The notes under the pieces: model-generated
Databases searched by the model: none
Seen by the model: only the letters and a program-made list of their open reading frames with translations
Told to the model about the DNA's origin: nothing
Shown: positions 51,202 to 64,000 of the stretch, one piece after another
How positions within the stretch are numbered: the stretch's first letter is position 1
Layout: each line of letters opens with the position of its first letter
Assembly (NCBI RefSeq): GCF_900631955.1
Contig: NZ_UZWD01000015.1
Location: forward strand, 1-64,000
Direction: 5' to 3'
Length of the DNA stretch: 64,000 bases
DNA from: Devosia equisanguinis
Lineage (GTDB): Bacteria > Pseudomonadota > Alphaproteobacteria > Rhizobiales > Devosiaceae
Made by a program: the position numbers and the translations under genes

Positions 51202-52080
51202 TCAGGACGCGGCTGCGGCGGGGCGCAGGCCGAAGGTATGATCGAGCGACTTATGGGCGCCGATACGCTCGCCGGACGCATTCCATCCAGCTTCTTCGTC
51301 GGTGAGGTTGACGATCAGCTGCTCCTTGACGCCGAACACGGCATCGCTGTGCAGATAGTCGTCGCCGGCGATGAAGAGATGGGTGACGAGCGTGTCATAG
51401 CCATCCTTGCCGATCATGAAATGGATATGGGCGGGGCGATAGGGATGGCGGCCCACCGCCTCGAGCATCTTGCCGACCGGACCGTCATGGGGGATGGGGT
51501 AGAAGGTCGGGACGATCGACCAGAAGGACAGCCGGCCTTCGGCATCGGTGCGGAAGCGGGCGCGCAGGTTTTCCTCCTGCCCGGGCTTTTGCACATCGTA
51601 ATAGCCGTCGTCATCGGACTGCCAGACATCGACCCAGGCATCGGCAATCGGCTTGCCGTCGGGGGTCAGCACCTGGGCACTCACATGCAGCGGCGTGCCT
51701 TGGCTGGCGCCGGCAATGTCGCTGCCATGCGGCCGTTCCTTGAGCGGCGGGACATAGAAGGGCCCCAGCACCGTCGTCTCGGTCGTGCCTTCCATGCTGC
51801 GGTGATTGATGGCATCGACCAGCATGGAAAAGCCCAGCGTGTCGGAGAGCAGGATGAATTCCTGCCGTTTGTCATCGCACATATGCCCGGTCTGGGTGAG
51901 GAAGCCGATGGCGGTTTCCCATTCGGACATGGAGAGGTTCACATCGAGGGCGAAGGCATGCAGATGGCGGACCAACGATTGCAGCACTTCGCGCAGGCGC
52001 GGATTTTCGGCATTGGCGAAGCTGGCCACGACCTCTTCGGTCAGCGCATTGGCATCGCTCTTGAGGGTCTGGGCGGTCAT
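51202..52080 (-). CDS. Hydroxyquinol 1,2-dioxygenase (intradiol)
   Basis: 292 residues with an intact non-haem Fe(III) site: Tyr161 (YYDVQ), Tyr194 (TFYPIP), His218 and His220 (RPAHIH). The pairing of an N-terminal helical domain (HAFALDVNLSMSEWETAIGFL) with the LGPFYVPP motif matches hydroxyquinol (1,2,4-trihydroxybenzene) dioxygenases; catechol 1,2-dioxygenase cannot be excluded. The window encodes maleylacetate reductase but no muconate cycloisomerase or muconolactone isomerase, which favours hydroxyquinol. The gene ends the LIV-type transporter operon and overlaps the LivM-type gene's stop region. It has an AGGAG site. Confidence 0.85.
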   Translation of the reverse strand: MTAQTLKSDANALTEEVVASFANAENPRLREVLQSLVRHLHAFALDVNLSMSEWETAIGFLTQTGHMCDDKRQEFILLSDTLGFSMLVDAINHRSMEGTTETTVLGPFYVPPLKERPHGSDIAGASQGTPLHVSAQVLTPDGKPIADAWVDVWQSDDDGYYDVQKPGQEENLRARFRTDAEGRLSFWSIVPTFYPIPHDGPVGKMLEAVGRHPYRPAHIHFMIGKDGYDTLVTHLFIAGDDYLHSDAVFGVKEQLIVNLTDEEAGWNASGERIGAHKSLDHTFGLRPAAAAS

Positions 52081-53174
52081 TTTTTCTGCTCCTTGGCAGA
52101 GCCGATATCCAGGCGTCGCCGCGTCGGGAACAGGTGGATGCCGGTAAATTGGGAGAAATTGCCCCAGATACCCTTGGGCGCGAGCAGCATCACCGCGATG
52201 CCCAGCGCACCGAGCACGATGAGATACCAGGGGCCGTAACCGGACAGGGCATTGCGCAGCAGCACGAAGAGGATGGCGCCGATGATCGGCCCTTCGATGG
52301 TGGCGAGGCCGCCGATGACAACGATGAAGATGATGTAAGCGGTCCAGTCGAGCAGCGAGAAGGCGGCGTCGGGCGAGATGCGCGAGGTCTGGAGGAAGTA
52401 GATGGCGCCGACCAGGCCGGCACAGAAGGCGGCAAAGACATAGATGGCGAACTTGATTCGCGTGGTGCTGACGCCAACGCTCTGGGCCGCCACTTCACCA
52501 TCCTTGATGGCGCGCAAAGCCAGGCCCACACGCGAGCGCAAGAGGTAGTAGCAGCCGCCGACCACCAGCACGATGGTGAAGAGCGCAGCCCAATAGATGA
52601 TGATCTCGCGGGCGGCGGCGCTGCGCACGCCAAACAGCTCGCTGACGAATTCGAGGCCAAACATGTCACCGGTGGCCGAGCGCGGCAACGAGGTGCCGGT
52701 GCCGCCACCCAGCTCGCGCCACTGGGCGAGCAGCAGGCGGAAGACTTCGGCCACCACCCAGGTGACCACGGCGAAATAGGCGCCCTGCATGCGGAAGACC
52801 AGCGAGCCCACCGGAATGGAGAGCAGCGCCACGATGATGGCCGCGACGGGGATGGAGAGGAGCGGATCAAAACCGCCGACAATAATCAGTGCGAAGAGCG
52901 CATAACCACCCAGACCCACAAAGGCCTGCTGGCCGACCGAGATCAGGCCGGCATAGCCGGCCATGAGGTTCCAGCACAGCGCCAGCGAGGCAAGCAGGAA
53001 AACCAGGATCAGATCCTGCAGCATCGGGCGGGAGGCGAAGGCCGGGGCAAAGACCAGCACGGCGACCAGCGCCAGGGCGATGACGGTAAAGATACGCGAG
53101 GTGCGGGTGGCGACGCGGACGGTGTAGCCGCCTGCGACGGGCTCGGGGGCGGCGGTAGGGATGGGTTGGGACAT
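52077..53174 (-). CDS. livM: LIV-type ABC transporter permease (LivM)
   Basis: 365-residue inner-membrane permease with eight or so hydrophobic segments and the LivM motif LMAGYAGLISVGQQAFVGLGGY, plus LRAIKDGEVAAQSVGVSTTRIKFA. Starts MSQPIPTAAP, 4 bases from the LivH-type stop. Imports branched-chain amino acid-type or aromatic acid substrates together with LivH, LivG and LivF. Confidence 0.9.
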   Translation of the reverse strand: MSQPIPTAAPEPVAGGYTVRVATRTSRIFTVIALALVAVLVFAPAFASRPMLQDLILVFLLASLALCWNLMAGYAGLISVGQQAFVGLGGYALFALIIVGGFDPLLSIPVAAIIVALLSIPVGSLVFRMQGAYFAVVTWVVAEVFRLLLAQWRELGGGTGTSLPRSATGDMFGLEFVSELFGVRSAAAREIIIYWAALFTIVLVVGGCYYLLRSRVGLALRAIKDGEVAAQSVGVSTTRIKFAIYVFAAFCAGLVGAIYFLQTSRISPDAAFSLLDWTAYIIFIVVIGGLATIEGPIIGAILFVLLRNALSGYGPWYLIVLGALGIAVMLLAPKGIWGNFSQFTGIHLFPTRRRLDIGSAKEQKK

Positions 53175-53178
53175 GTCT

Positions 53179-54036
53179 CTACTGCTTCGGGAACAGGCCA
53201 CGCGGGCGGAAGATGATGAACACCAGGAAGACCAGGTGTCCGGCCAGGATCTGCCATTCGGGATTGATACGGGCGCCGATGGCCTGGGCCACGCCGAGGA
53301 TGACGCCGCCGGCTAGGGTACCCCAGAGGCTGCCGAGGCCACCGATCACCACCGCCTCGAAGGCGTAGAGCAGGCGCGCCGGGCCGACGCTGGGGTCGAA
53401 ATTGGAGCGGATGCCCATGAAGAAGGCGGCAATGGTCAGCACCACGAAGGAAATGCCCATGGCAATGGCGAAGACGATGCGCGGATTGACACCCATGAGC
53501 TGCACCACTTCGGTCGAGTCCGAGGTGGCGCGCAGGCGGCGGCCGAGTCCGGTGCCATAGAAGATGTAGCTGAGGACGCCGAGCACCACCACGGCGACGG
53601 CGAAGGTGATCAGCGGAACCACGCCAAGCGAAAGACCCAGAATATTGACCGACTGGGTTTCTATGGGGCCCAGCGACAGCTTGCGACTATCGGCGCTGAA
53701 GGCGACCAGAAGCCCGTTCTGAATGAGAATTTGCAGGCCGAAGGTGACCAGCAGCGGCAGGAGGATATCGTCGCCCAGGGTGCGGTTGAGCAGATAACGC
53801 TGCAGAGCCCAGCCCAGCGCGAAGGCGAAGGGCAAAAGAATGAGCAGCGCGATCGGCAGCGGCAGGCCCAAGGCGGTGACCATGGCCAGAAGCACGAAGG
53901 CGGCCAGGACGATGAGATCGCCATGGGCCAGGTTGATGAGGCGCATGACGCCGAAGATCAGGGACAGGCCCGCGGCATAGAGGGCATAGAGCCCGCCCAG
54001 CAGGACGCCTTGTACAATGGTGTTGAGGTATTCCAT
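53179..54036 (-). CDS. livH: LIV-type ABC transporter permease (LivH)
   Basis: 285-residue permease with the hallmark GLYALYAAGLSLIFGVMRLINLAHGD near the N-terminus and a later LRATSDSTEVVQLMGVNPR coupling loop. Two bases separate it from the LivF-type stop. Forms the translocation pore with LivM. Confidence 0.92.
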   Translation of the reverse strand: MEYLNTIVQGVLLGGLYALYAAGLSLIFGVMRLINLAHGDLIVLAAFVLLAMVTALGLPLPIALLILLPFAFALGWALQRYLLNRTLGDDILLPLLVTFGLQILIQNGLLVAFSADSRKLSLGPIETQSVNILGLSLGVVPLITFAVAVVVLGVLSYIFYGTGLGRRLRATSDSTEVVQLMGVNPRIVFAIAMGISFVVLTIAAFFMGIRSNFDPSVGPARLLYAFEAVVIGGLGSLWGTLAGGVILGVAQAIGARINPEWQILAGHLVFLVFIIFRPRGLFPKQ

Positions 54037-54038
54037 CC

Positions 54039-54743
54039 CTAACTTCCGAAATAGGCCGCGAGGATCTGCGAACGATCGAATTCATCCGCACGACCAGCCA
54101 GGCTGACCTTGCCCTCGAGGAAACAATAAATGCGGTCGGCAGCGCTCAAGGCAGCGTTGAGGTCCTGCTCGACGATGACGATGGTGGTGCCGCGCTTCTT
54201 GATCTCGGCGATGGCGGCATAGACGTCCTTGACGGCGGCGGGCGAGAGGCCAAGGCTGATCTCGTCGCACAAGAGAACGCGCGGATTGGAGATCAGCGCC
54301 CGGCCGATAGCCACCATCTGCTGCTGCCCGCCCGAAAGGGTGGGGGCCAGCTGATCGGCGCGTTCGCGCAATATGGGGAAGAGATCGCAGATGGTCTCGT
54401 AGTTCCAGCCGCGATCGCCGCTCTTGCCGTTTTCACCCATGCGCAGATTGTCGCCAACCGACATGGACGGGAAAAGCCGGCGCCCTTCGGGCACGAGGGC
54501 AATGCCGGATTTCACCATGTCGAAGGCGGGCTTGCCGCCAACCGGCTTGCCATCGAGCAGAATGCCGTCGGGCCGGCTTTTGACCAGGCCGGAAAGCGCC
54601 TTGAGGAAAGACGATTTGCCGGCGCCATTGGCACCGATAATGGCGACGGTCTCGCCTTCATTGACGTGAAAATCCACGCCGAACACGGCCTGGAAGTCGC
54701 CATAAAAGACTTCCAGGTTCTTGGTCTCGAGCAAGGCCATCAT
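54039..54743 (-). CDS. livF: LIV-type ABC transporter ATPase (LivF)
   Basis: 234-residue ATP-binding subunit. Walker A GANGAGKSS, signature LSGGQQQMVAIGRAL, Walker B LLCDEISLG and the LivF-type VPEGRRLFPSMSVGDNL segment. Its first codons overlap the end of the LivG-type gene. Note a MetMet start; either may be used. Confidence 0.92.
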   Translation of the reverse strand: MMALLETKNLEVFYGDFQAVFGVDFHVNEGETVAIIGANGAGKSSFLKALSGLVKSRPDGILLDGKPVGGKPAFDMVKSGIALVPEGRRLFPSMSVGDNLRMGENGKSGDRGWNYETICDLFPILRERADQLAPTLSGGQQQMVAIGRALISNPRVLLCDEISLGLSPAAVKDVYAAIAEIKKRGTTIVIVEQDLNAALSAADRIYCFLEGKVSLAGRADEFDRSQILAAYFGS

Positions 54744-55468
54744 GCTGCGACCTCGTCATCGATGCCGAGATAGGACCGGCGGACCTGAGGATCGGCCATG
54801 ACGGCGTGGGGCTCGCCGTCGGCGATCTTGCGGCCGAATTCCAGGACCATGAGACGGGAGACCACCGACATGAGCGCGTGCACGACGTGCTCGATCCAGA
54901 CGATGGTGACGCCCTGCTGGTTGACCTGCTTGATGAACTCGACGAGTTCGTGGCACTCGGCCTCGGTGAGGCCGCCGGCGATTTCGTCGAGCAGCACGAT
55001 ATTGGGCTCGGTGGCCAAAGCGCGCGCCATTTCCAGACGCTTGCGGTTGAGTAGCGTGAGCTTGCCAGCCAGGGTATTGGCGTGCGGCGCAAGGCCCGTG
55101 CGCTCCAGAATGGAGCCGCAGAGTTCGTTGGCGCCGCGGTGGCCATGCTCGCGGCCATATTCGGCGGCGACCAGAAGGTTCTCGAAGACGGTCAGGCTCT
55201 CAAAAGGTCGCGGGATCTGGAAAGACCGCCCAATGCCCGCCACGCAGCGATTGCGCAGCGACACATTGGTGACGTCCTTTCCAGCCAGGGTCACCGTACC
55301 GGCATCGGGGGTGATGACGCCGGTAATGAGGTTGAACAGGCTCGACTTGCCGGCGCCATTGGCGCCGATTATGCCGAGGGCTTCTCCGTGGGCCACTTCG
55401 AGGTCGATATTATCGGCCACGACAACAGCGCCAAAGCGCTTGGATACGCCGGCAAGTCTCAGGATCAT
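54740..55468 (-). CDS. livG: LIV-type ABC transporter ATPase (LivG)
   Basis: 242-residue ATPase: Walker A GANGAGKSS, GIGRSFQIPRPFESLTVFEN (LivG signature), LTLLNRKRLEMARALA in place of the standard LSGGQ-type stretch, and Walker B IVLLDEIAGGL. Works with LivF to power import. Located four bases after the binding-protein gene. Confidence 0.92.
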   Translation of the reverse strand: MILRLAGVSKRFGAVVVADNIDLEVAHGEALGIIGANGAGKSSLFNLITGVITPDAGTVTLAGKDVTNVSLRNRCVAGIGRSFQIPRPFESLTVFENLLVAAEYGREHGHRGANELCGSILERTGLAPHANTLAGKLTLLNRKRLEMARALATEPNIVLLDEIAGGLTEAECHELVEFIKQVNQQGVTIVWIEHVVHALMSVVSRLMVLEFGRKIADGEPHAVMADPQVRRSYLGIDDEVAA

Positions 55469-55472
55469 TTGA

Positions 55473-56783
55473 CTACTCGATAGCTTCCATCTTGCCGCCC
55501 AGCGGAATTTCCGGATGGGCAGCGTTTTCGACGATCACCAGCTCGAAGCTGCCATCGTCCTGAATGCGCCACTGGCCACCGACCAGCGGGGTCTTGGAGA
55601 CGTTGGCGGCAACCACGGGCGGCAGGCCTTCCTGGCCGAACTGGACATGGCCAACGATGGTGTCGAGGTTGATCGCCGCAATGGATTCAGCCAGCGAATC
55701 CGGATCGAAGGGATCGTCGGCGCGCTTGATGGAGTCGATCGCAACCTCGAACAGGCCATGGGCAAAGCCGATCGGCTGGGTCCAGGGACGACCGGTGGCG
55801 GCGGTGAAGCCTTCAGCCAATTCGCCCGCACTCTGGCCAGTCAGCGAGGACTTGAAGGGGTGCGAGGCCGACCACCACACTTCGCTCGACAGGTTGTTGC
55901 CGATGGGGCCAAGGGCTTCCACGGCGATCGGGAACAGGATGGCCTTGGCGACCGACACCACCTTGGGCTTGAAACCCTGCTGGTTGGCCTGGGTCCAGAA
56001 GGTGGTCAGATCGGGCGGGATGACCACGCCGGTGACGATCTCGGCATTGGCAGCCTTGAACGCATTGATCTGGGCGGTGAAGTCGTCCGACAGGTTCTGG
56101 AAGCGACCCGGATCGGTGACGGTGTAACCACCGGCGGCCAGAGCCGGGGGAAGACCGACATCGGGATTGCCCCAGGCATTGCCGTCGGCGTCGTTGGGGA
56201 ACAGGCCACCGACCTGCTTGTTGGTCTCGAGCTGGTTCCACATGCCCTGATAGGTGGCAATGACGTCTTCGAGGCCCCAGAAGAAATGGTAGGTGTAGTC
56301 AAAGGATTCCCATGTGGACGGATCGCCCGGATTGGCCTGGCGCTCGATGAACCACGGCTGCCACGGCGCGGCGGTGGAAATGCAGGGGATGCCTTCGATT
56401 TCGCACTGGGCCGAAACCGGATTGGTGGTTTCGGGCGTGGAGGCCACCACGATCAGCTGCACTTCGTCGTCGACGATCAGCTGGCGGGCCACTTCGGCGG
56501 CGCGATTGGGATTGGACTGGCTGTCGCGAACGATGATCTCGACATTGACCGGGCCATTGGCGGTCTCGATGCTGCCACCAAGAATGTCATAGACCTGCTT
56601 GATGACGAAATCGTCGGCTTCGGCAAAGGCGGCGAGCGGGCCGGTCTGGGGCGTCACATAACCGATCTTGATGGTTTCGCCTTGCGCCATGACGGCCGGA
56701 GACATGGCGAGTACGGCCAGCGCCGAGGTCGCCCCCAAGAAGATGCGCCGGCTGACCGGCATAAACTTGGTGGATTTGGACAT
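55473..56783 (-). CDS. LIV-type ABC transporter binding protein
   Basis: 436-residue periplasmic protein of the LivK/Leu-binding family, with a Tat-type twin-arginine signal (SRRIFLGATSALAVLAM) and mature start near AQGETIKIGYVTPQTG. First gene of a five-gene transporter operon that ends in hydroxyquinol dioxygenase. Aromatic acids rather than amino acids are the probable ligands, by context: related binding proteins take up benzoates. Confidence 0.9.
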   Translation of the reverse strand: MSKSTKFMPVSRRIFLGATSALAVLAMSPAVMAQGETIKIGYVTPQTGPLAAFAEADDFVIKQVYDILGGSIETANGPVNVEIIVRDSQSNPNRAAEVARQLIVDDEVQLIVVASTPETTNPVSAQCEIEGIPCISTAAPWQPWFIERQANPGDPSTWESFDYTYHFFWGLEDVIATYQGMWNQLETNKQVGGLFPNDADGNAWGNPDVGLPPALAAGGYTVTDPGRFQNLSDDFTAQINAFKAANAEIVTGVVIPPDLTTFWTQANQQGFKPKVVSVAKAILFPIAVEALGPIGNNLSSEVWWSASHPFKSSLTGQSAGELAEGFTAATGRPWTQPIGFAHGLFEVAIDSIKRADDPFDPDSLAESIAAINLDTIVGHVQFGQEGLPPVVAANVSKTPLVGGQWRIQDDGSFELVIVENAAHPEIPLGGKMEAIE

Positions 56784-57937: not shown

Positions 57938-59140
57938 CTAAACTCGCTCCAGACCGACAGCGATGCCCTGGCCGACACCGATGCACATGGTGGCCAAGCC
58001 ATAGCGCTCGCCCGTGATCGACAGTTCCAGCGCCGCTGTCCCGGTAATGCGCGCGCCGCTCATGCCAAGCGGATGGCCGAGGGCAATGGCGCCGCCATTG
58101 CGGTTGACCTGCGGCGCATCCTCGGCCAGCCCGAGATCGCGCAATACCGCAATGCCCTGGCTCGCAAAGGCCTCGTTGAGTTCGATGACACCGAACGCAC
58201 TGGGGGTGAGGCCGAGACGGGCGCAGAGTTTCTTGGTGGCGGGGGCCGGCCCCATGCCCATGATGCGGGGCGGGACACCGGCGGTGGCGCCGCCGAGAAT
58301 GCGGGCGATTGGGGTCAGCCCGTATTTTCTGGCAGCGGCTTCCGACGCGATGATCAGCGCGGCGGCGCCGTCATTGACGCCGGAAGCATTGCCGGCTGTG
58401 ACCGTTCCATTGGGGAAGAGCGGGCGCAGCTTGGCAAGGGTTTCAACCGTGGTGCCGGCGCGCGGATGCTCGTCCTTGTCGACGATAACGGCATCGCCCT
58501 TTTTCTGGGGGATGGTGACCGGCACGATTTCGCGGGCCAGGCGACCGCTGGCCTGGGCGGCGACGGCCTTGTCCTGGCTGCGCACGGCGAATTCGTCCTG
58601 GGCCTGGCGCGAAACGCCGAACTCCTGGGCGACGTTCTCGCCGGTCTCGGGCATGGAATCGACGCCGTATTGCGCCTTCATCTGCGGATTGACGAAGCGC
58701 CAGCCAATGGTGGTGTCGTAAATCTCGGCATTGCGCGAAAAGGCGCTGTCGGCCTTGGGCAGGACGAAGGGCGCCCGCGACATGGATTCAGTGCCGCCGG
58801 CAATCATCAGCTCGGCCTCGCCGGCCTTGATGGCGCGCGCGGCAGCGATGACCGCATCCATGCCGGAGCCGCAGAGACGATTGATGGTGGTACCGGTGAC
58901 GCCCACCGGCAGGCCGGCCAGCAACAGGCTCATGCGGGCGACATTGCGATTGTCCTCGCCGGCCTGATTGGCATTGCCGAAGATGACGTCGTCGACGGCA
59001 TCCCAGTCCACACCGGCGGCTTCGGCCATCAGGGCCTTGAGCGGAATGGCGCCGAGATCGTCGGGGCGGACAGCCGAGAGGCTGCCGCCGAACCGGCCGA
59101 TGGGTGTCCGCTTATAGGCGCAGATAAAGGCTTCAGCCAT
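57938..59140 (-). CDS. pcaF: 3-oxoadipyl-CoA thiolase (PcaF)
   Basis: 400 residues. Active-site Cys90 (NRLCGSGMDAV), the GGAIALGHPLGMSGARI histidine and the CIGVGQG cysteine near the C-terminus, giving a complete thiolase triad. The opening AFICAYKRTPIGRFGGSLS and the FGNANQAGEDNRNVARM segment are typical of PcaF. Cleaves 3-oxoadipyl-CoA to succinyl-CoA plus acetyl-CoA. One base separates it from the CoA-transferase B gene. Confidence 0.95.
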   Translation of the reverse strand: MAEAFICAYKRTPIGRFGGSLSAVRPDDLGAIPLKALMAEAAGVDWDAVDDVIFGNANQAGEDNRNVARMSLLLAGLPVGVTGTTINRLCGSGMDAVIAAARAIKAGEAELMIAGGTESMSRAPFVLPKADSAFSRNAEIYDTTIGWRFVNPQMKAQYGVDSMPETGENVAQEFGVSRQAQDEFAVRSQDKAVAAQASGRLAREIVPVTIPQKKGDAVIVDKDEHPRAGTTVETLAKLRPLFPNGTVTAGNASGVNDGAAALIIASEAAARKYGLTPIARILGGATAGVPPRIMGMGPAPATKKLCARLGLTPSAFGVIELNEAFASQGIAVLRDLGLAEDAPQVNRNGGAIALGHPLGMSGARITGTAALELSITGERYGLATMCIGVGQGIAVGLERV

Positions 59141-59923
59141 TTATGCGGCCCTCTTGGTGCCATTGTGGGCGGCAGTGGTGCGCGCCTGCAGATCGCGCAG
59201 CGTACCAAGCTCTTCGGCGGTCGGCACGGGGGTTTCTTCGAGATCGTCGGCGAAGCGCACTTTCCAGCCGCAGGTTTCCTGCACCATGTCGCGGGTGACG
59301 CCGCGATGCAGCGAGCGCACGACGAATTCCTTGGTCTCGTGGTCGGGGCGCCAGATGGCCAGATCGGTGATCAGCAGCGTCGGCCCCTTGGTCTTGAGAC
59401 CCAGGCGCTGGCGGTGGTCACCGCCTTCGCCATGGCCGAACGAGGTATAGAAATCGATCTTGTCGACCATCGAGCGGGTCGCCTGCTTGAGGGTGATGTA
59501 GATCTCGCCGCAGGAGGTGGCGATCTCCGGCGCACCGCCGCCGCCAGGCAGACGCACCTTGGGCTGGTTGTAATCGCCGATGACGGTGGTGTTGATATTG
59601 CCGAAACGGTCGAGCTGCGCCGCGCCGAGGAAGCCGATGGAAATGCGGCCACCCATCAGCCAGTAGCGGAACATCTCGGGCACGGCGACGGTGCAGAGCG
59701 CGGTCTCGCACAATTCGCCATCGCCGATGGAGAGCGGCAGGACATCGGGCGCGGTGCCGATAGTGCCGCTTTCATAGATGAGGGTGATGTCGGGCGCGTG
59801 GGTGAGACGGGCGACATTGCAGGCAGCAGAGGGCGCACCGATGCCGACAAAGCAGACATCGTCATTGCTCAGCTGGCGCGCTGCCGCAATGGTCATCATC
59901 TCGTTGGGCGTGAAGTCGGTCAT
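59141..59923 (-). CDS. pcaJ: 3-oxoadipate CoA-transferase subunit B (CatJ/PcaJ type)
   Basis: 260 residues, the longer CatJ-like form of the two PcaJ types. Contains CFVGIGAPSAACNVARL and GELCETALCTVAVPEMFRY (family I CoA-transferase core with catalytic region), and LPGGGGAPEIATSC. Acts with subunit A to move CoA from succinyl-CoA to 3-oxoadipate. Start overlaps the subunit A stop (ATGA). Confidence 0.9.
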   Translation of the reverse strand: MTDFTPNEMMTIAAARQLSNDDVCFVGIGAPSAACNVARLTHAPDITLIYESGTIGTAPDVLPLSIGDGELCETALCTVAVPEMFRYWLMGGRISIGFLGAAQLDRFGNINTTVIGDYNQPKVRLPGGGGAPEIATSCGEIYITLKQATRSMVDKIDFYTSFGHGEGGDHRQRLGLKTKGPTLLITDLAIWRPDHETKEFVVRSLHRGVTRDMVQETCGWKVRFADDLEETPVPTAEELGTLRDLQARTTAAHNGTKRAA

Positions 59924-60771
59924 ACGCGCAAATCCCTTACTCGGTCGGCAAATGCCTCGGGGGTGGCCTCGAGCACGTTCTGCTTGATCCAGCCGGCGAA
60001 CAGCTCACGATCGGAGGAAATCTTGTCCCATTCGAGATAGGTGGCGTTGTCGCGCTGGTAATAGCCATGGGTATAGGAGGGATGCGCCCCACCCGGCACC
60101 ACGGCGATGGCATCGACCGTCCAATGCGGCAGGATGCAGAGATTGGGATGCAGGCCCTTGAAGCTGGGCACCACTTCCTCGACCGTGACCACGACGCGCT
60201 TGGCGGCGAGGGCGGCTTCCTTCTGCACGCCGATAATGCCTTCGATCAGGATATCGCCCTTCTCGCTGGCCTTCTGGGCATGGATGAAGGTGACATCGGG
60301 ATGATGGGCCGGCACCGCTGCCAGCTGCTCGCCGGTAAAGGGGCAGGTCATCATCTTGATGTTGGGATTGACCTTGGGCAGATCGGCACCCTTGTATCCA
60401 CGGAACAGGGCCAGCGGCAGGCCGGAGGCGCCGGCCTCATAGGCCTGGGCCATGGCCGAATGGGAATGCTCCACCGTCTCGATGCCGCGCGGAAAGGCGT
60501 TCTCGATGGCATCGCGCATGCGACGCAACAGCCCCACACCGGGATTGCCGGCATAGGAGAAGATCACCTTCTTGGCCATACCCATGCCGATCATCTGGTC
60601 ATAGATGATGTCGGGGGTCATGCGGATCAGGGTGAGATCCTTGAAGCCTTGGCGGATCGCCTCATGGGCCGCCGCATGGGGGATGAGATGGGTGAAGCCT
60701 TCAAAGGCCACCGCATCGCCATTGTTCAGATTTTCTCCCACCGCCTGGCTGAGCGGCACAAATTTGCTCAT
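59920..60771 (-). CDS. pcaI: 3-oxoadipate CoA-transferase subunit A (CatI/PcaI type)
   Basis: 283 residues from MSKFVPLSQAVG; the frame extends much further upstream, but that part overlaps the divergent PcaQ gene antisense and is not coding. Contains VAFEGFTHLIPHAAAHEAIRQ, IFSYAGNPGVGLLRRM and PFTGEQLAAVPAH. First gene of the pcaIJF operon. The length of 283 rather than about 230 fits the CatI lineage. Confidence 0.9.
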   Translation of the reverse strand: MSKFVPLSQAVGENLNNGDAVAFEGFTHLIPHAAAHEAIRQGFKDLTLIRMTPDIIYDQMIGMGMAKKVIFSYAGNPGVGLLRRMRDAIENAFPRGIETVEHSHSAMAQAYEAGASGLPLALFRGYKGADLPKVNPNIKMMTCPFTGEQLAAVPAHHPDVTFIHAQKASEKGDILIEGIIGVQKEAALAAKRVVVTVEEVVPSFKGLHPNLCILPHWTVDAIAVVPGGAHPSYTHGYYQRDNATYLEWDKISSDRELFAGWIKQNVLEATPEAFADRVRDLRV

Positions 60772-60868: not shown

Positions 60869-61807
60869 ATGATGGCGACCAGCCTCCTCGACCCGCGTAT
60901 CAAGTTGCGGCACATCAGCTGCTTTTTGGAAGTCAACCGGCAGCGCGGCGTGGTGCCGGCGAGCCAGGCGCTGGGGCTCAGCCAGCCGGCGGTGTCCAAA
61001 TCCATCGCCGAGCTCGAGGACCTGCTGCAGACCGCCCTGTTCGACCGCTCCGGGCGAAAGCTGGTGCTGACCCGGCAGGGCGAGATTTTCGCCCGCCATG
61101 CCATGGCGGCGGCTGCGGCGATCCGCGAGGGGATCGAGAGCATGGACCTCAACCGGTCCAGCCACACCGTGGTGCGTCTGGGCGCGTTGCCGACCGTGGA
61201 AGTGGAGGTGGTGCCGCGCGCCGTGGAGCGCTTCATGCACACCCCCTTTGCCTGCCGGGTGCATGTGGAAAGCGGCCCCAGCGGCCACATGCTGGCCATG
61301 CTGCGCGATGGCAATCTCGACTTCATCGTCGGGCGCCTGGCCAGTCCCGAGGTGATGAACGGATTGATCTTCGAGCATCTTTATTCCGAACAACTCACCT
61401 TTGCGGTGCGCCCGAGCCATCCTTTGGCAAGCAAGCCGACGCTGAGCTATCGCGAGCTTGAGCCTTATCCGATGCTGTTGCCACCGGCCAATGCCATCAT
61501 CCGGCCGATCGTGGATTCGCTGTTCATCGCTGGAGGCGCCGGCCGGTTCCGCTATGAGATCGAGACGGTGTCAAACGGCTTTGCCCGCGCCTATGCGCTT
61601 GAGAACGACGCCATCTGGACGATTTCGCGCAGCGTCGTCGCCCATGACCTGGAGATCGGGCAATTGGTGGCGCTGGCGCTCGACACCAGCGCCAGTCATG
61701 GGCCGGTGGGCATCACCATGCGCAGCAATGAACAGTTGAGCGTGGTCACCAGCGCTTTGCTCGACGCCGTGCGCGAAGCGGCGGCGGAGGTGGCAGCGCG
61801 GGGCTGA
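60869..61807 (+). CDS. pcaQ: PcaQ-type LysR regulator of the pca genes
   Basis: 312 residues. N-terminal LRHISCFLEVNRQRGVVPAS followed by LGLSQPAVSKSIAELEDLLQ is diagnostic of PcaQ, the LysR regulator of protocatechuate/3-oxoadipate genes. The downstream effector domain reads GALPTVEVEVVPRAVERF. Divergent from pcaIJF, and expected to activate it with 3-carboxymuconate or 3-oxoadipate-type ligands, so hydroxyquinol-derived intermediates may be ligands here. Confidence 0.93.
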   Translation: MMATSLLDPRIKLRHISCFLEVNRQRGVVPASQALGLSQPAVSKSIAELEDLLQTALFDRSGRKLVLTRQGEIFARHAMAAAAAIREGIESMDLNRSSHTVVRLGALPTVEVEVVPRAVERFMHTPFACRVHVESGPSGHMLAMLRDGNLDFIVGRLASPEVMNGLIFEHLYSEQLTFAVRPSHPLASKPTLSYRELEPYPMLLPPANAIIRPIVDSLFIAGGAGRFRYEIETVSNGFARAYALENDAIWTISRSVVAHDLEIGQLVALALDTSASHGPVGITMRSNEQLSVVTSALLDAVREAAAEVAARG

Positions 61808-61896: not shown

Positions 61897-62883
61897 CTAG
61901 ACGCGTTTCCAGTCTTCAGGGGCGGTGTTGGCGGGTTCGCGGCCGAAGACGCGTTGGTAATATTCGCCGTAGAGCGGGCGCTCGGCCTCGTCGCAGCGGT
62001 TGAGGAAGGCGGTGTTGAAGGCGAAGTCGAGATCGCCGAAGACGCGATAATTCTGTGCCCAGGAAATGACGGTGCGCGGCGACATCACCACCGAAACATC
62101 GCCAGCGGCGAAGCCGGCGCGGGTCAGGTTGGCCATGCGCACCATCTGCAACAGCATCTCGCCGCGTTCAGCCTCGCCCATGAACGGCACCTTGCTCAGC
62201 ACCACCTCGACCTCGGCGCCCTCATCGAGATAATCGAGGCGTGCGATGATGTTCCAGCGGTCGAGCTGGGCCTGATTGAGCTGCTGGGTGCCGTGATAGA
62301 GCCCGGTGACGTCGCCCAGGCCCACCGTATTGGCAGTGGCGAACAGGCGGAAGAACGGATTGGGCGGAATGACCTTGTTCTGATCGAGAATGGTCAGCTT
62401 GCCCTCGGCCTCGAGCACACGCTGGATGACGAACATCACATCGGGCCGGCCGGCATCATATTCATCGAGCACCAGCGCCACCGGGCGCTGATAGCACCAG
62501 GGCAAGAGGCCCTCGCGATATTCGGTGACCTGCTTGCCGTCGCGCAACACGATGGCGTCCTTGCCGATGAGATCGATGCGGCTGACATGGCTGTCGAGGT
62601 TGAGGCGCAGGCAGGGCCAGTTGAGGCGGGCGGCCACCTGCTCGATATGGCTGGACTTGCCGGTGCCGTGGCGGCCCTGCAGCAGCACGCGCAGATTGCC
62701 GTTGAAGCCGGCAAGGATGGCCATGGTGGTGGCCGGATCGAAGCGATAGCTGGGATCGAGCGCCGGAACATGTTCGTCGCGGGTGGAAAAGGCCGGGACC
62801 GTGCCCTCGACATCGAGGCCGAAGGTGTCGCGAATGGAGAGCTCGATATCCGGACGGGCGCCGGGCGACAATTCCTGGATCAC
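61897..62883 (-). CDS. CobS-like AAA+ ATPase (MoxR/CobS family)
   Basis: 328 residues, closely like CobS, the ATPase subunit of aerobic cobaltochelatase. Walker A GRHGTGKSS, then HIEQVAARLNWPCLRLNLDSHVSRIDLIGKDAIV, Walker B LVLDEYDAGRPD and sensor 1 FATANTVGLGDVTGLYHGTQ. No CobN, CobT or other cobalamin gene is in the window, and the gene overlaps a Rieske-type gene (ATGA) in a hydroxyquinol catabolic cluster. So it may be a paralogue that remodels or loads metal into another enzyme, such as an oxygenase. A true CobS in a novel place remains possible. Confidence 0.8.
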   Translation of the reverse strand: MIQELSPGARPDIELSIRDTFGLDVEGTVPAFSTRDEHVPALDPSYRFDPATTMAILAGFNGNLRVLLQGRHGTGKSSHIEQVAARLNWPCLRLNLDSHVSRIDLIGKDAIVLRDGKQVTEYREGLLPWCYQRPVALVLDEYDAGRPDVMFVIQRVLEAEGKLTILDQNKVIPPNPFFRLFATANTVGLGDVTGLYHGTQQLNQAQLDRWNIIARLDYLDEGAEVEVVLSKVPFMGEAERGEMLLQMVRMANLTRAGFAAGDVSVVMSPRTVISWAQNYRVFGDLDFAFNTAFLNRCDEAERPLYGEYYQRVFGREPANTAPEDWKRV

Positions 62884-63290
62884 GCTTGGTCTCCGGGGCG
62901 GGAAATCACGATATTGCCGTCCTCGACATGCACCGGAACGGGGTCGAGCCAGCAGTTCTGCGCCGCGCCGGCCACGCCAAAACCGTCTTCGATGCGGAAT
63001 TCGGCGAAATGCATGGTGCAGCGGATGCGGCTGCCATCCTCGTTGAGGAAATGGCCGGCGCGATGGTTGAGGGGCGAGGAATAATGCGGGCAGATATTGA
63101 GATAGCCGAACACCTGCGCGCCACGGCGTACCACGAACATGGAAAACACCGTGGTGCCGCGGCCGAAGACAAATTCCTTCGCGGCGCCATCGGCCAGCTC
63201 TTCGAGCGGGGCCAGCACCGTGCCGGGCATGGGCGCGCGCGGGCGAGTACGCCAGAGGATGGGATCGGGCTGGGAAAGTGCGTCAGCCAT
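62880..63290 (-). CDS. Rieske-type 2Fe-2S ferredoxin-like protein
   Basis: 136 residues from MADALSQPDP. The Rieske ligands are Cys67-x-His69 (ICPHYS) and Cys91-x2-His94 (RCTMH), so the cluster site is complete. Lacks a catalytic iron domain, hence an electron carrier or stand-alone Rieske. Start lies 8 bases inside the end of the YciI-like gene and its stop overlaps the CobS-like start. Probably serves an oxygenase, not visible here. Confidence 0.85.
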   Translation of the reverse strand: MADALSQPDPILWRTRPRAPMPGTVLAPLEELADGAAKEFVFGRGTTVFSMFVVRRGAQVFGYLNICPHYSSPLNHRAGHFLNEDGSRIRCTMHFAEFRIEDGFGVAGAAQNCWLDPVPVHVEDGNIVISRPGDQA

Positions 63291-63588
63291 GGGCGGGCTC
63301 CGGCTGGCCCAGGCCCCAGTTAAAGCCGGTGATGGTGACGGTCTCAAAGAGGTTTTCCAGCATATAGGGGTCTCCGGCCAGATAGGTCTCGACCGCCGCG
63401 CGGTTGTCGGCCTCGATGACCAGCATGGTGCCGATCATGGCGGCGGCACCGTCGAGCAGCGGGCCGCCTATGCGGACGCTGACCGGATGATCATGCTGCC
63501 GGAGGCGGGCCCGATGGCTTTCACGCAGGCGCTGGCGGTCTTCGAGCCGGCCGGGGCGATCCAGGGCATGGACACAGAAATATGCCAT
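63283..63588 (-). CDS. YciI-family protein
   Basis: 101 residues with the ferredoxin-like YciI fold: MAYFCVHALDRPGRLEDRQ opening, GGPLLDGAAAMIGTMLVIEADNRAAVETYLAGDPYM core. Family members resemble muconolactone isomerases and some take part in ring-opened intermediates. The gene follows the maleylacetate reductase stop by seven bases, so it is in the same operon. Catalytic role not established. Confidence 0.8.
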   Translation of the reverse strand: MAYFCVHALDRPGRLEDRQRLRESHRARLRQHDHPVSVRIGGPLLDGAAAMIGTMLVIEADNRAAVETYLAGDPYMLENLFETVTITGFNWGLGQPEPAHG

Positions 63589-63595
63589 GCCGACC

Positions 63596-64000
63596 TCAGG
63601 GCGCCCTGCCCTCGAAGGCGGCCTGCAGCATGTGGCGCACGCCTTCGCGGGTAACCGGGCGCGGATTGTAATAGGGGTTCTGCAGGGCGATATCGGCGGC
63701 CGTGTCGAGATCGGCTTCGGTGAGGCCCATTTCGGCCAGCGAGCGCTTGCTGGCGGCGCGCTGGGTCAATTGGTAGATGCCGGTGGGTCCATCAACCGTG
63801 CCAAGGGCGCGGGCAATGCTGGCCATGGCCTCGGGCGCGGCGTCGCGGTTATAGGCGGAGGTGTAGGGGATCATCAGCGCGTGGATGTCGGCATGGTTCA
63901 GGTTGAACGTGCCGCCCAGCGTGTGACAGATCTTGTGATGGATGGCCATGCCGACGGCGCCGAGGCAGACCCCGGCCAGCCAGGCGCCGTAAAGCGCTTC
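63596..64000 (-). CDS. Maleylacetate reductase (partial, 3' part)
   Basis: C-terminal 134 residues visible; the open frame continues past the window end, so the start is not in view. The segment EALYGAWLAGVCLGAVGMAIHHKICHTLGG is the iron-dependent alcohol-dehydrogenase signature of maleylacetate reductases, including the metal-region histidines (HHKICH). Reduces maleylacetate, the hydroxyquinol ring-cleavage product, to 3-oxoadipate, feeding pcaIJF. First visible gene of the operon with the YciI-like, Rieske and CobS-like genes. Confidence 0.88.
   Translation of the reverse strand, partial: EALYGAWLAGVCLGAVGMAIHHKICHTLGGTFNLNHADIHALMIPYTSAYNRDAAPEAMASIARALGTVDGPTGIYQLTQRAASKRSLAEMGLTEADLDTAADIALQNPYYNPRPVTREGVRHMLQAAFEGRAP

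Follow-up and report, generated by a model that had tools for sequence, protein, structure and literature searches.

The window analysed here, the first 64,000 bases (G000:C18:1-64000) of a 117,453-base contig of Devosia equisanguinis, carries a gene for a CobS-like AAA+ ATPase at one end of a catabolic operon whose other end, just past base 64000, is flanked by a divergent gene for a CobT-like protein with a von Willebrand factor A (VWA) domain. The ring-cleavage enzyme of this operon, PnpCD, is by homology a type II hydroquinone 1,2-dioxygenase (HQDO). We propose, with a probability of roughly 60%, that the CobS-like and CobT-like proteins (hereafter the pair) are a dedicated AAA+/VWA activase whose client is the Fe(II) enzyme HQDO, with the Rieske protein of the same operon as electron donor. 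The observations from which this proposal starts are the gene order, the intact motifs, the joint occurrence with HQDO and the phylogenetic separation from ordinary CobS and CobT.

Gene layout of the HQDO operon

The genes at issue, in contig order, are:

61897-62883, minus strand: CobS-like AAA+ ATPase, GTG start, 328 amino acids; matches CobS_N and AAA_5, and TIGR01650 below its cut-off
62880-63290, minus strand: Rieske [2Fe-2S] protein, 136 amino acids; Pfam Rieske
63283-63588, minus strand: YciI-like protein, 101 amino acids; Pfam YCII
63596-64648, minus strand, leaving the window at 64000: maleylacetate reductase (MAR) of the PnpF type, 350 amino acids, Fe-ADH-type
64675-66138, minus strand, outside the window on the same contig: aldehyde dehydrogenase
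66243-67286, minus strand, outside the window: HQDO large subunit PnpD; PF18191 and homology to 5m21
about 67309-67809, minus strand, outside the window: HQDO small subunit PnpC; homology to 5m21
67982-69844, plus strand, outside the window: CobT-like VWA protein, 620 amino acids; CobT domain at the N-terminus, VWA domain

The original prediction, made from the window alone, had described overlapping YciI-like, Rieske and CobS-like genes behind MAR, and the open reading frames and Pfam matches agree with it. The CobS-like gene overlaps the Rieske gene by 4 bases and the Rieske gene overlaps the YciI-like gene by 8, and all four Pfam scores lie over cut-off (CobS_N 45.6 bits, AAA_5 44.1, Rieske 29, YCII 46.5). 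The Rieske reading frame as listed opens at a TTG, and the alignment of its relatives begins at the ATG at 63290; counted from this ATG, the cluster ligands named in the prediction (Cys67/His69 and Cys91/His94) are numbered exactly. An oxygenase and a CobT- or VWA-type partner had also been foretold beyond base 64000, and both are encoded there. PnpD matches the solved HQDO 5m21 with 570.9 bits and PF18191 with 172.8 bits (cut-off 25), PnpC matches 5m21 with 224.9 bits, and the CobT-like protein scores 270.6 bits against CobT_C; its gene and pnpC are divergent and about 170 bases apart. HxNxxxE and RH motifs, whose residues we take to be the iron ligands, are present in PnpD of all 32 HQDO loci aligned.

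The label 'hydroxyquinol operon' stood in part. An intradiol dioxygenase of the catechol/hydroxyquinol type is indeed encoded at 51202-52080, but the operon's own ring-cleavage enzyme is HQDO, whose substrate by homology is hydroquinone. The intradiol enzyme falls short of the catechol dioxygenase and chlorocatechol dioxygenase cut-offs of NCBIfam, and hydroxyquinol is its presumed substrate. From family knowledge, the window and the adjoining genes presumably make up the full pathway from hydroquinone to 3-oxoadipate. Public records call HQDO subunits 'hydroxyquinol 1,2-dioxygenase' (L167 6365-7948; L169 6941-7960), which is likely a misnaming.

Distribution of the pair among HQDO loci

To the window were added 17 PnpD loci from named records as well as class, genus and plasmid loci, giving 32 HQDO loci in all. 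The pair is present in nine of these and absent from 23. The carriers are the window, D. enhydra, two further genomes of the genus Devosia, HKCCE2091, Paracoccaceae, Maritimibacter and Bauldia metagenome-assembled genomes, and Ruegeria. The layout is the same in all nine: the CobT-like gene is divergent on the pnpC side, where it abuts pnpC or is separated from it by one regulator (of the IclR type in L020), and the CobS-like gene ends a YciI-Rieske-CobS-like string. In four carriers (L017-L020) the ATP-binding cassette (ABC) transporter and the intradiol gene sit between MAR and the YciI-like gene. The homologues in all nine loci adjoin hydroquinone-pathway genes and not cobN and cobT, and a CobT-like partner stands at the same locus as the window's CobS-like gene; both a cobN/cobT setting and a lone cobS had been named by the original prediction as outcomes that would speak against it.

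Among the named-record loci the pair occurs in 6 of 17, all with a PnpD identity of at least 77%; neither gene lies in the stretches of the other 11 (PnpD identity at most 75%), whose genomes have at most one CobS. PF18191 was found in 10 of 385 class genomes, and the pair is absent from the fetched stretches of the nine other than the window's. It is also absent from the three plasmid HQDO records examined, out of 20 such records. The CobS-like, Rieske and YciI-like genes had been predicted to act as one accessory set. What holds is the association of the CobS-like with the CobT-like gene (9 of 32 HQDO loci); Rieske and YciI-like genes proved to be wider companions of HQDO, lying within the examined stretch of 22 and 14 of the 32 loci, respectively. 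The C-x-H ... C-x2-H ligands are invariant in all 22 HQDO-linked Rieske proteins aligned.

Co-occurrence was followed through the CobT-like protein, membership of its clade being assigned by score against it (ordinary CobT at most 416 bits, clade members found at least 665 bits). Four of the 136 family genomes have the clade, and these are the four that have PF18191; by plain count, two random sets of four from 136 would coincide about once in 13.6 million, kinship making these odds less extreme. Further searches gave one clade-bearing genome out of 385 for the class and three out of 397 for the order, each with HQDO, and one out of 390 for the Ruegeria order, namely the chosen centre itself. 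The clade was not found in 72,556 plasmid records, the best score among the matches listed being 385 bits. A protein search listed 120 clusters that score as members of the clade would (659-1348 bits), many of them metagenomic, with no gene context, and one of them from a Bradyrhizobium genome; exceptions, with the clade but no HQDO, may exist among these clusters. In the genomes sampled, the pair is never seen without HQDO, and HQDO is often seen without the pair.

From family knowledge, hydroquinone is a toxic, redox-active substrate. This toxicity would suit a chaperone of general kind that counters quinone or oxidative damage, is regulated together with hydroquinone breakdown and has no fixed metal task, and the available part of one source reports that a MoxR protein shields a model protein from aggregation (PMC11432383). 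We consider such a role for the pair quite unlikely, as 132 of the 136 family genomes have no member of the clade and the other four are those with HQDO, which argues for a specific client.

Separation from the cobaltochelatase pair

The D. equisanguinis genome encodes an ordinary CobS/CobT pair on other contigs, in addition to the operon pair. The ordinary proteins pass the NCBIfam equivalog cut-offs (CobS, TIGR01650, 637.6 bits against 558.55; CobT, TIGR01651, 880.3 bits against 759.05), whereas the operon proteins fall under them (503.6 and 468.1 bits, respectively). Scores in other carriers are alike: 507.1 (L016) and 515.5 bits (L150) for TIGR01650, and 466.7 (D. enhydra) and 453.4 bits (HKCCE2091) for TIGR01651. 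CobS, CobT and CobN were searched in 27 HQDO-bearing genomes. Seven of them, namely the window's genome and six with the pair at their HQDO loci, have a further CobS (484-515 bits) and a further CobT (230-271 bits) of lower score. G388 and G389, two of these carriers, show the ordinary CobS as fragments only. Additional CobT matches are two on a different contig in G388, two fragments of a single one in G389 and two short ones in G390. CobS matches are absent from G007 and G398, and in G289 CobS comes in two pieces, probably one gene split over contigs. An AAA_5 match on contig C53 was rejected as a true cobS, being McrB-like. CobN matches occur in 20 of the 27 genomes. CobS and CobT without a CobN match were seen in 7 of the 25 CobS-bearing genomes (G027, G244, G386, G393, G394, G396 and G399) and likewise in the Caulobacter vibrioides control.

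These data bear on a rival reading in which the pair duplicates the cobaltochelatase motor, acts together with CobN and has come to its operon position by accident. Its closest solved homologues are CobS (9ujv, 451 bits) and CobT (9uka, 392 bits), its ATPase and metal-ion-dependent adhesion site (MIDAS) motifs are intact, and CobN matches exist in the window's genome. Yet these matches, like those to ordinary CobS and CobT, all lie on other contigs, unlinked to the operon pair (other cob genes were not searched for in the window), and both operon copies miss the cut-offs that the genome's other pair passes. In addition, the carrier HKCCE2091 (G386, Rhodobacterales) has both pairs and no CobN match in its draft genome, the other six carriers searched having CobN, and the pair flanks the HQDO operon at two ends in all nine carriers. 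A redundant motor is accordingly very unlikely. A lone or B12-type cobS was rejected on the same cut-offs and layout and on the presence of the partner.

The nine carriers form one group in each of three trees: for CobS (58 rows; 100/100, on a long stem, the bootstrap not being fully settled), for CobT (50 rows, quick method; 99) and for PnpD (32 rows; 100/99). When three plasmid AAA+ homologues were used to root the CobS tree, the outgroup had end branches of 2.65-7.19 and the carriers became paraphyletic. The root being unsettled, we limit the claim to the carriers lying outside the ordinary CobS group; a place inside true CobS would have told against the original prediction. One gain of the pair fits the grouping of the carriers in the CobS, CobT and PnpD trees. 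HKCCE2091 joins Devosia for the CobS-like (100/90) and CobT-like (96) proteins, with its PnpD position unresolved, and its ordinary CobS joins that of Ruegeria (93/85), which suggests that the cluster has moved between orders as a unit.

A cluster that seems to move between orders, and 23 of 32 HQDO loci that do without the pair, would also suit hitch-hiking, in which the pair travels with the operon and has no role there. We hold this to be highly improbable: the two genes, one at each end of the operon and differing in strand, stay together with intact motifs in five non-Devosia carriers whose CobT-like proteins are 46-56% identical to the window's, and in the window the start of the CobS-like gene overlaps the stop of the Rieske gene.

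At the residue level, Walker A, Walker B, sensor 1 and DRW of the CobS-like protein are intact in all nine carriers, as is the MIDAS of the CobT-like protein (DxSGS and SDG in nine; GFTT in eight and GFST in one). The pair has the make-up of an AAA+/VWA machine, that is, an ATPase and a VWA protein with the MIDAS residues DxSxS-T-D, tied to one metalloenzyme. The arginine of GFTTR, beside the MIDAS threonine, is found in 33 of 36 ordinary CobT rows versus 2 of 9 carriers, and nine CobS columns that are near-invariant in 44 ordinary rows are matched in none of the nine carriers. These differences in sequence may signal a changed partner.

A putative activase for HQDO

In the mechanism that we propose, the CobS-like protein would build an ATPase ring on which the CobT-like protein would dock, its VWA/MIDAS face turned to PnpCD. 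ATP hydrolysis would pull PnpCD open, allowing an iron site that is dead or empty to be cleared and to take up new Fe(II), and the Rieske protein would donate an electron that takes Fe(III) to Fe(II) in HQDO. We infer here complex formation, HQDO as the client, ATP-driven reactivation of the oxygenase by the pair, the Rieske role and a benefit to the cell.

The available part of a study of Sphingomonas TTNP3 HQDO reports that activity was lost in O2 and partly recovered with Fe(II) and ascorbate, that loss on hydroquinone turnover was not reversed by Fe(II), and that ferredoxins were proposed by its authors as in vivo rescuers (PMC3222310). According to sections of two further sources, nitric oxide reductase depends on NorQ/NorD, an AAA+/VWA pair, for the insertion of its non-heme iron (PMC9976466, PMC13036017). 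In cobaltochelatase, an excerpt of the literature has CobS as the presumed ATP-driven engine, CobT as its partner and CobN as the substrate holder (PMC7689651). Neither ferredoxin nor accessory proteins are mentioned in the portions available of PMC4871426 and PMC4879640. In the open-licence literature we found no paper joining CobS/CobT to a ring-cleavage dioxygenase, most subscription journals lying outside the search.

The operon pair shares with the CobNST cobaltochelatase an AAA+ protein and a VWA partner bearing an N-terminal CobT domain, besides the closest solved structures. It differs in its locus without CobN, its sub-equivalog scores, its separate clades and the splitting of its two genes to both ends of a catabolic operon. 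NorQ/NorD is likewise an AAA+/VWA pair tied to one non-heme-iron enzyme; however, it belongs to another sequence family and its client is a membrane haem-enzyme, and CobS/CobT is mentioned nowhere in the parts available of the two NorQ/NorD sources (PMC9976466, PMC13036017). The Rubisco activase CbbQ/CbbO resembles the operon pair, as far as the accessible text describes it, in being an AAA+/VWA pair that rescues an enzyme inhibited after catalysis. CbbQ/CbbO has no metal task and differs from the operon pair in sequence family. Among pnpCDEFG-type operons, plasmid pPNP1 of Pseudomonas JS425 has HQDO, aldehyde dehydrogenase, MAR, intradiol dioxygenase, YciI and Rieske genes, but no CobS/CobT-like gene in its 15 kb stretch. 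XylT-type ferredoxins, which re-reduce the iron of catechol 2,3-dioxygenase, are small [2Fe-2S] proteins encoded, like the operon's Rieske protein, with an Fe(II) ring-cleavage dioxygenase. XylT, however, is a plant-type ferredoxin, whereas the operon protein has a Rieske domain (PF00355), its sole match, and shows no plant-type ferredoxin domain.

The pair could also activate another protein of the pathway in place of HQDO: the intradiol dioxygenase, the Rieske cluster, MAR or the ABC transporter. AAA+/VWA machines serve varied clients, and the carrier loci offer several, since Rieske and MAR genes are in all nine, ABC transporter relatives in eight, including the window, and the intradiol gene in the five whose stretch reaches that far. 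Such a client is nevertheless unlikely in view of the constant position of the CobT-like gene at pnpC and of two particular loci. L016 has the pair, yet nothing within its 21 kb matches the ABC transporter or the intradiol dioxygenase; L022 (9464-19786) has an HQDO operon with ABC transporter, intradiol dioxygenase, MAR and Rieske genes, yet no pair, and a single CobS in its genome. L022 offers a natural control for the contribution of the pair.

Several points weigh against HQDO as the client. The nearest PnpD relatives of the carriers, L021-L023, have no pair, and these and the other loci without it indicate that HQDO can do without the pair, which is then at most an enhancement of HQDO and not essential to it generally. 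A different enzyme of the operon is a possible client, as discussed above. The same ATPase and MIDAS motifs are equally intact in ordinary CobS and CobT. Distances among CobS-like, CobT-like and PnpD proteins correlate at 0.92-0.94 (36 pairs, 9 loci), as is expected for any co-travelling genes, the comparison having no unlinked control gene. Rieske distances were excluded from it, three of the extracted rows being only 16-20 amino acids long. Nothing convincing was found in the way of carrier-specific docking residues in PnpC and PnpD, the positions private to carriers being one invariant residue in PnpD, one in PnpC and one acidic PnpC position. Finally, five of the nine carriers were found through PnpD alone, so that the bias-free searches are those of the family, class and order.

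If HQDO is the client, the pair would use ATP to activate an aromatic ring-cleavage dioxygenase, an enzyme class prone to iron loss or death in turnover, and would be a B12 chelatase motor re-aimed at a protein client. It would offer a soluble, simple test bed for iron loading by AAA+/VWA machines and a means of keeping ring-cleavage dioxygenases alive in clean-up strains. The database name 'cobaltochelatase' would then call for caution, as it is no proof of B12 synthesis.

CobST pairs elsewhere and other genes of the contig

More widely, and with considerable doubt, CobST might activate metalloenzymes in general, cobaltochelatase being one of its users. Pairs unlinked to cobN would then serve HQDO (iron), urease (nickel), a taurine/sulfoacetaldehyde operon and, in Alphaproteobacteria, where the genes adjoin those for BolA and a J-domain protein, a housekeeping client. 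The client of the housekeeping CobS/CobT pair may differ from B12.

Several CobST loci outside the HQDO context were recorded. In L098, L099 and L102 the ordinary CobS/CobT pair adjoins genes for BolA and a J-domain protein. A Pandoraea oxalativorans plasmid (L103 3362-10820) has a CobS/CobT pair within a urease cluster, where ureDABC is divergent from genes for a UreE-type protein, ureG, cobS and cobT; no UreF is annotated in this stretch, whose gene table is incomplete and in which UreF was not searched for. A separate CobST lineage of beta- and gammaproteobacteria (L100, L101, L104 and L105) adjoins xsc and pta of taurine/sulfoacetaldehyde breakdown, with no cobN annotated in L100 (the other three were not searched for it). 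A Rieske oxygenase considered at these taurine-linked loci was rejected, the gene encoding an FAD-dependent oxidoreductase. On an Azospirillum plasmid (L165 843-7918), a distant AAA+ homologue is encoded with DUF3150 and VWA proteins beside the recombination genes bet and exonuclease.

The remaining genes assigned in the window are:

60869-61807, plus strand: LysR regulator of the PcaQ type, adjoining the CobS-like gene; TIGR02424 350.8 bits against a cut-off of 303.8
59920-60771, minus strand: CoA transferase, subunit A type, the start taken at an internal Met of the open reading frame
59141-59923, minus strand: CoA transferase, subunit B type; Pfam
57938-59140, minus strand: 3-oxoadipyl-CoA thiolase; TIGR02430 654.5 bits against a cut-off of 597
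52077-56783, minus strand: ABC transporter of the branched-chain type, whole set; Pfam and homology
55473-56783, minus strand: its binding protein
54039-54743 and 54740-55468, minus strand: its ATPases, that at 54740-55468 assigned by homology and size alone
52077-53201 and 53179-54036, minus strand: its permeases
51202-52080, minus strand: the intradiol dioxygenase of the catechol/hydroxyquinol type; Pfam

Past the CobT-like gene, the contig (70428-71845; L009 10428-11845) encodes a HupE/UreJ-type protein and a cytochrome c'.

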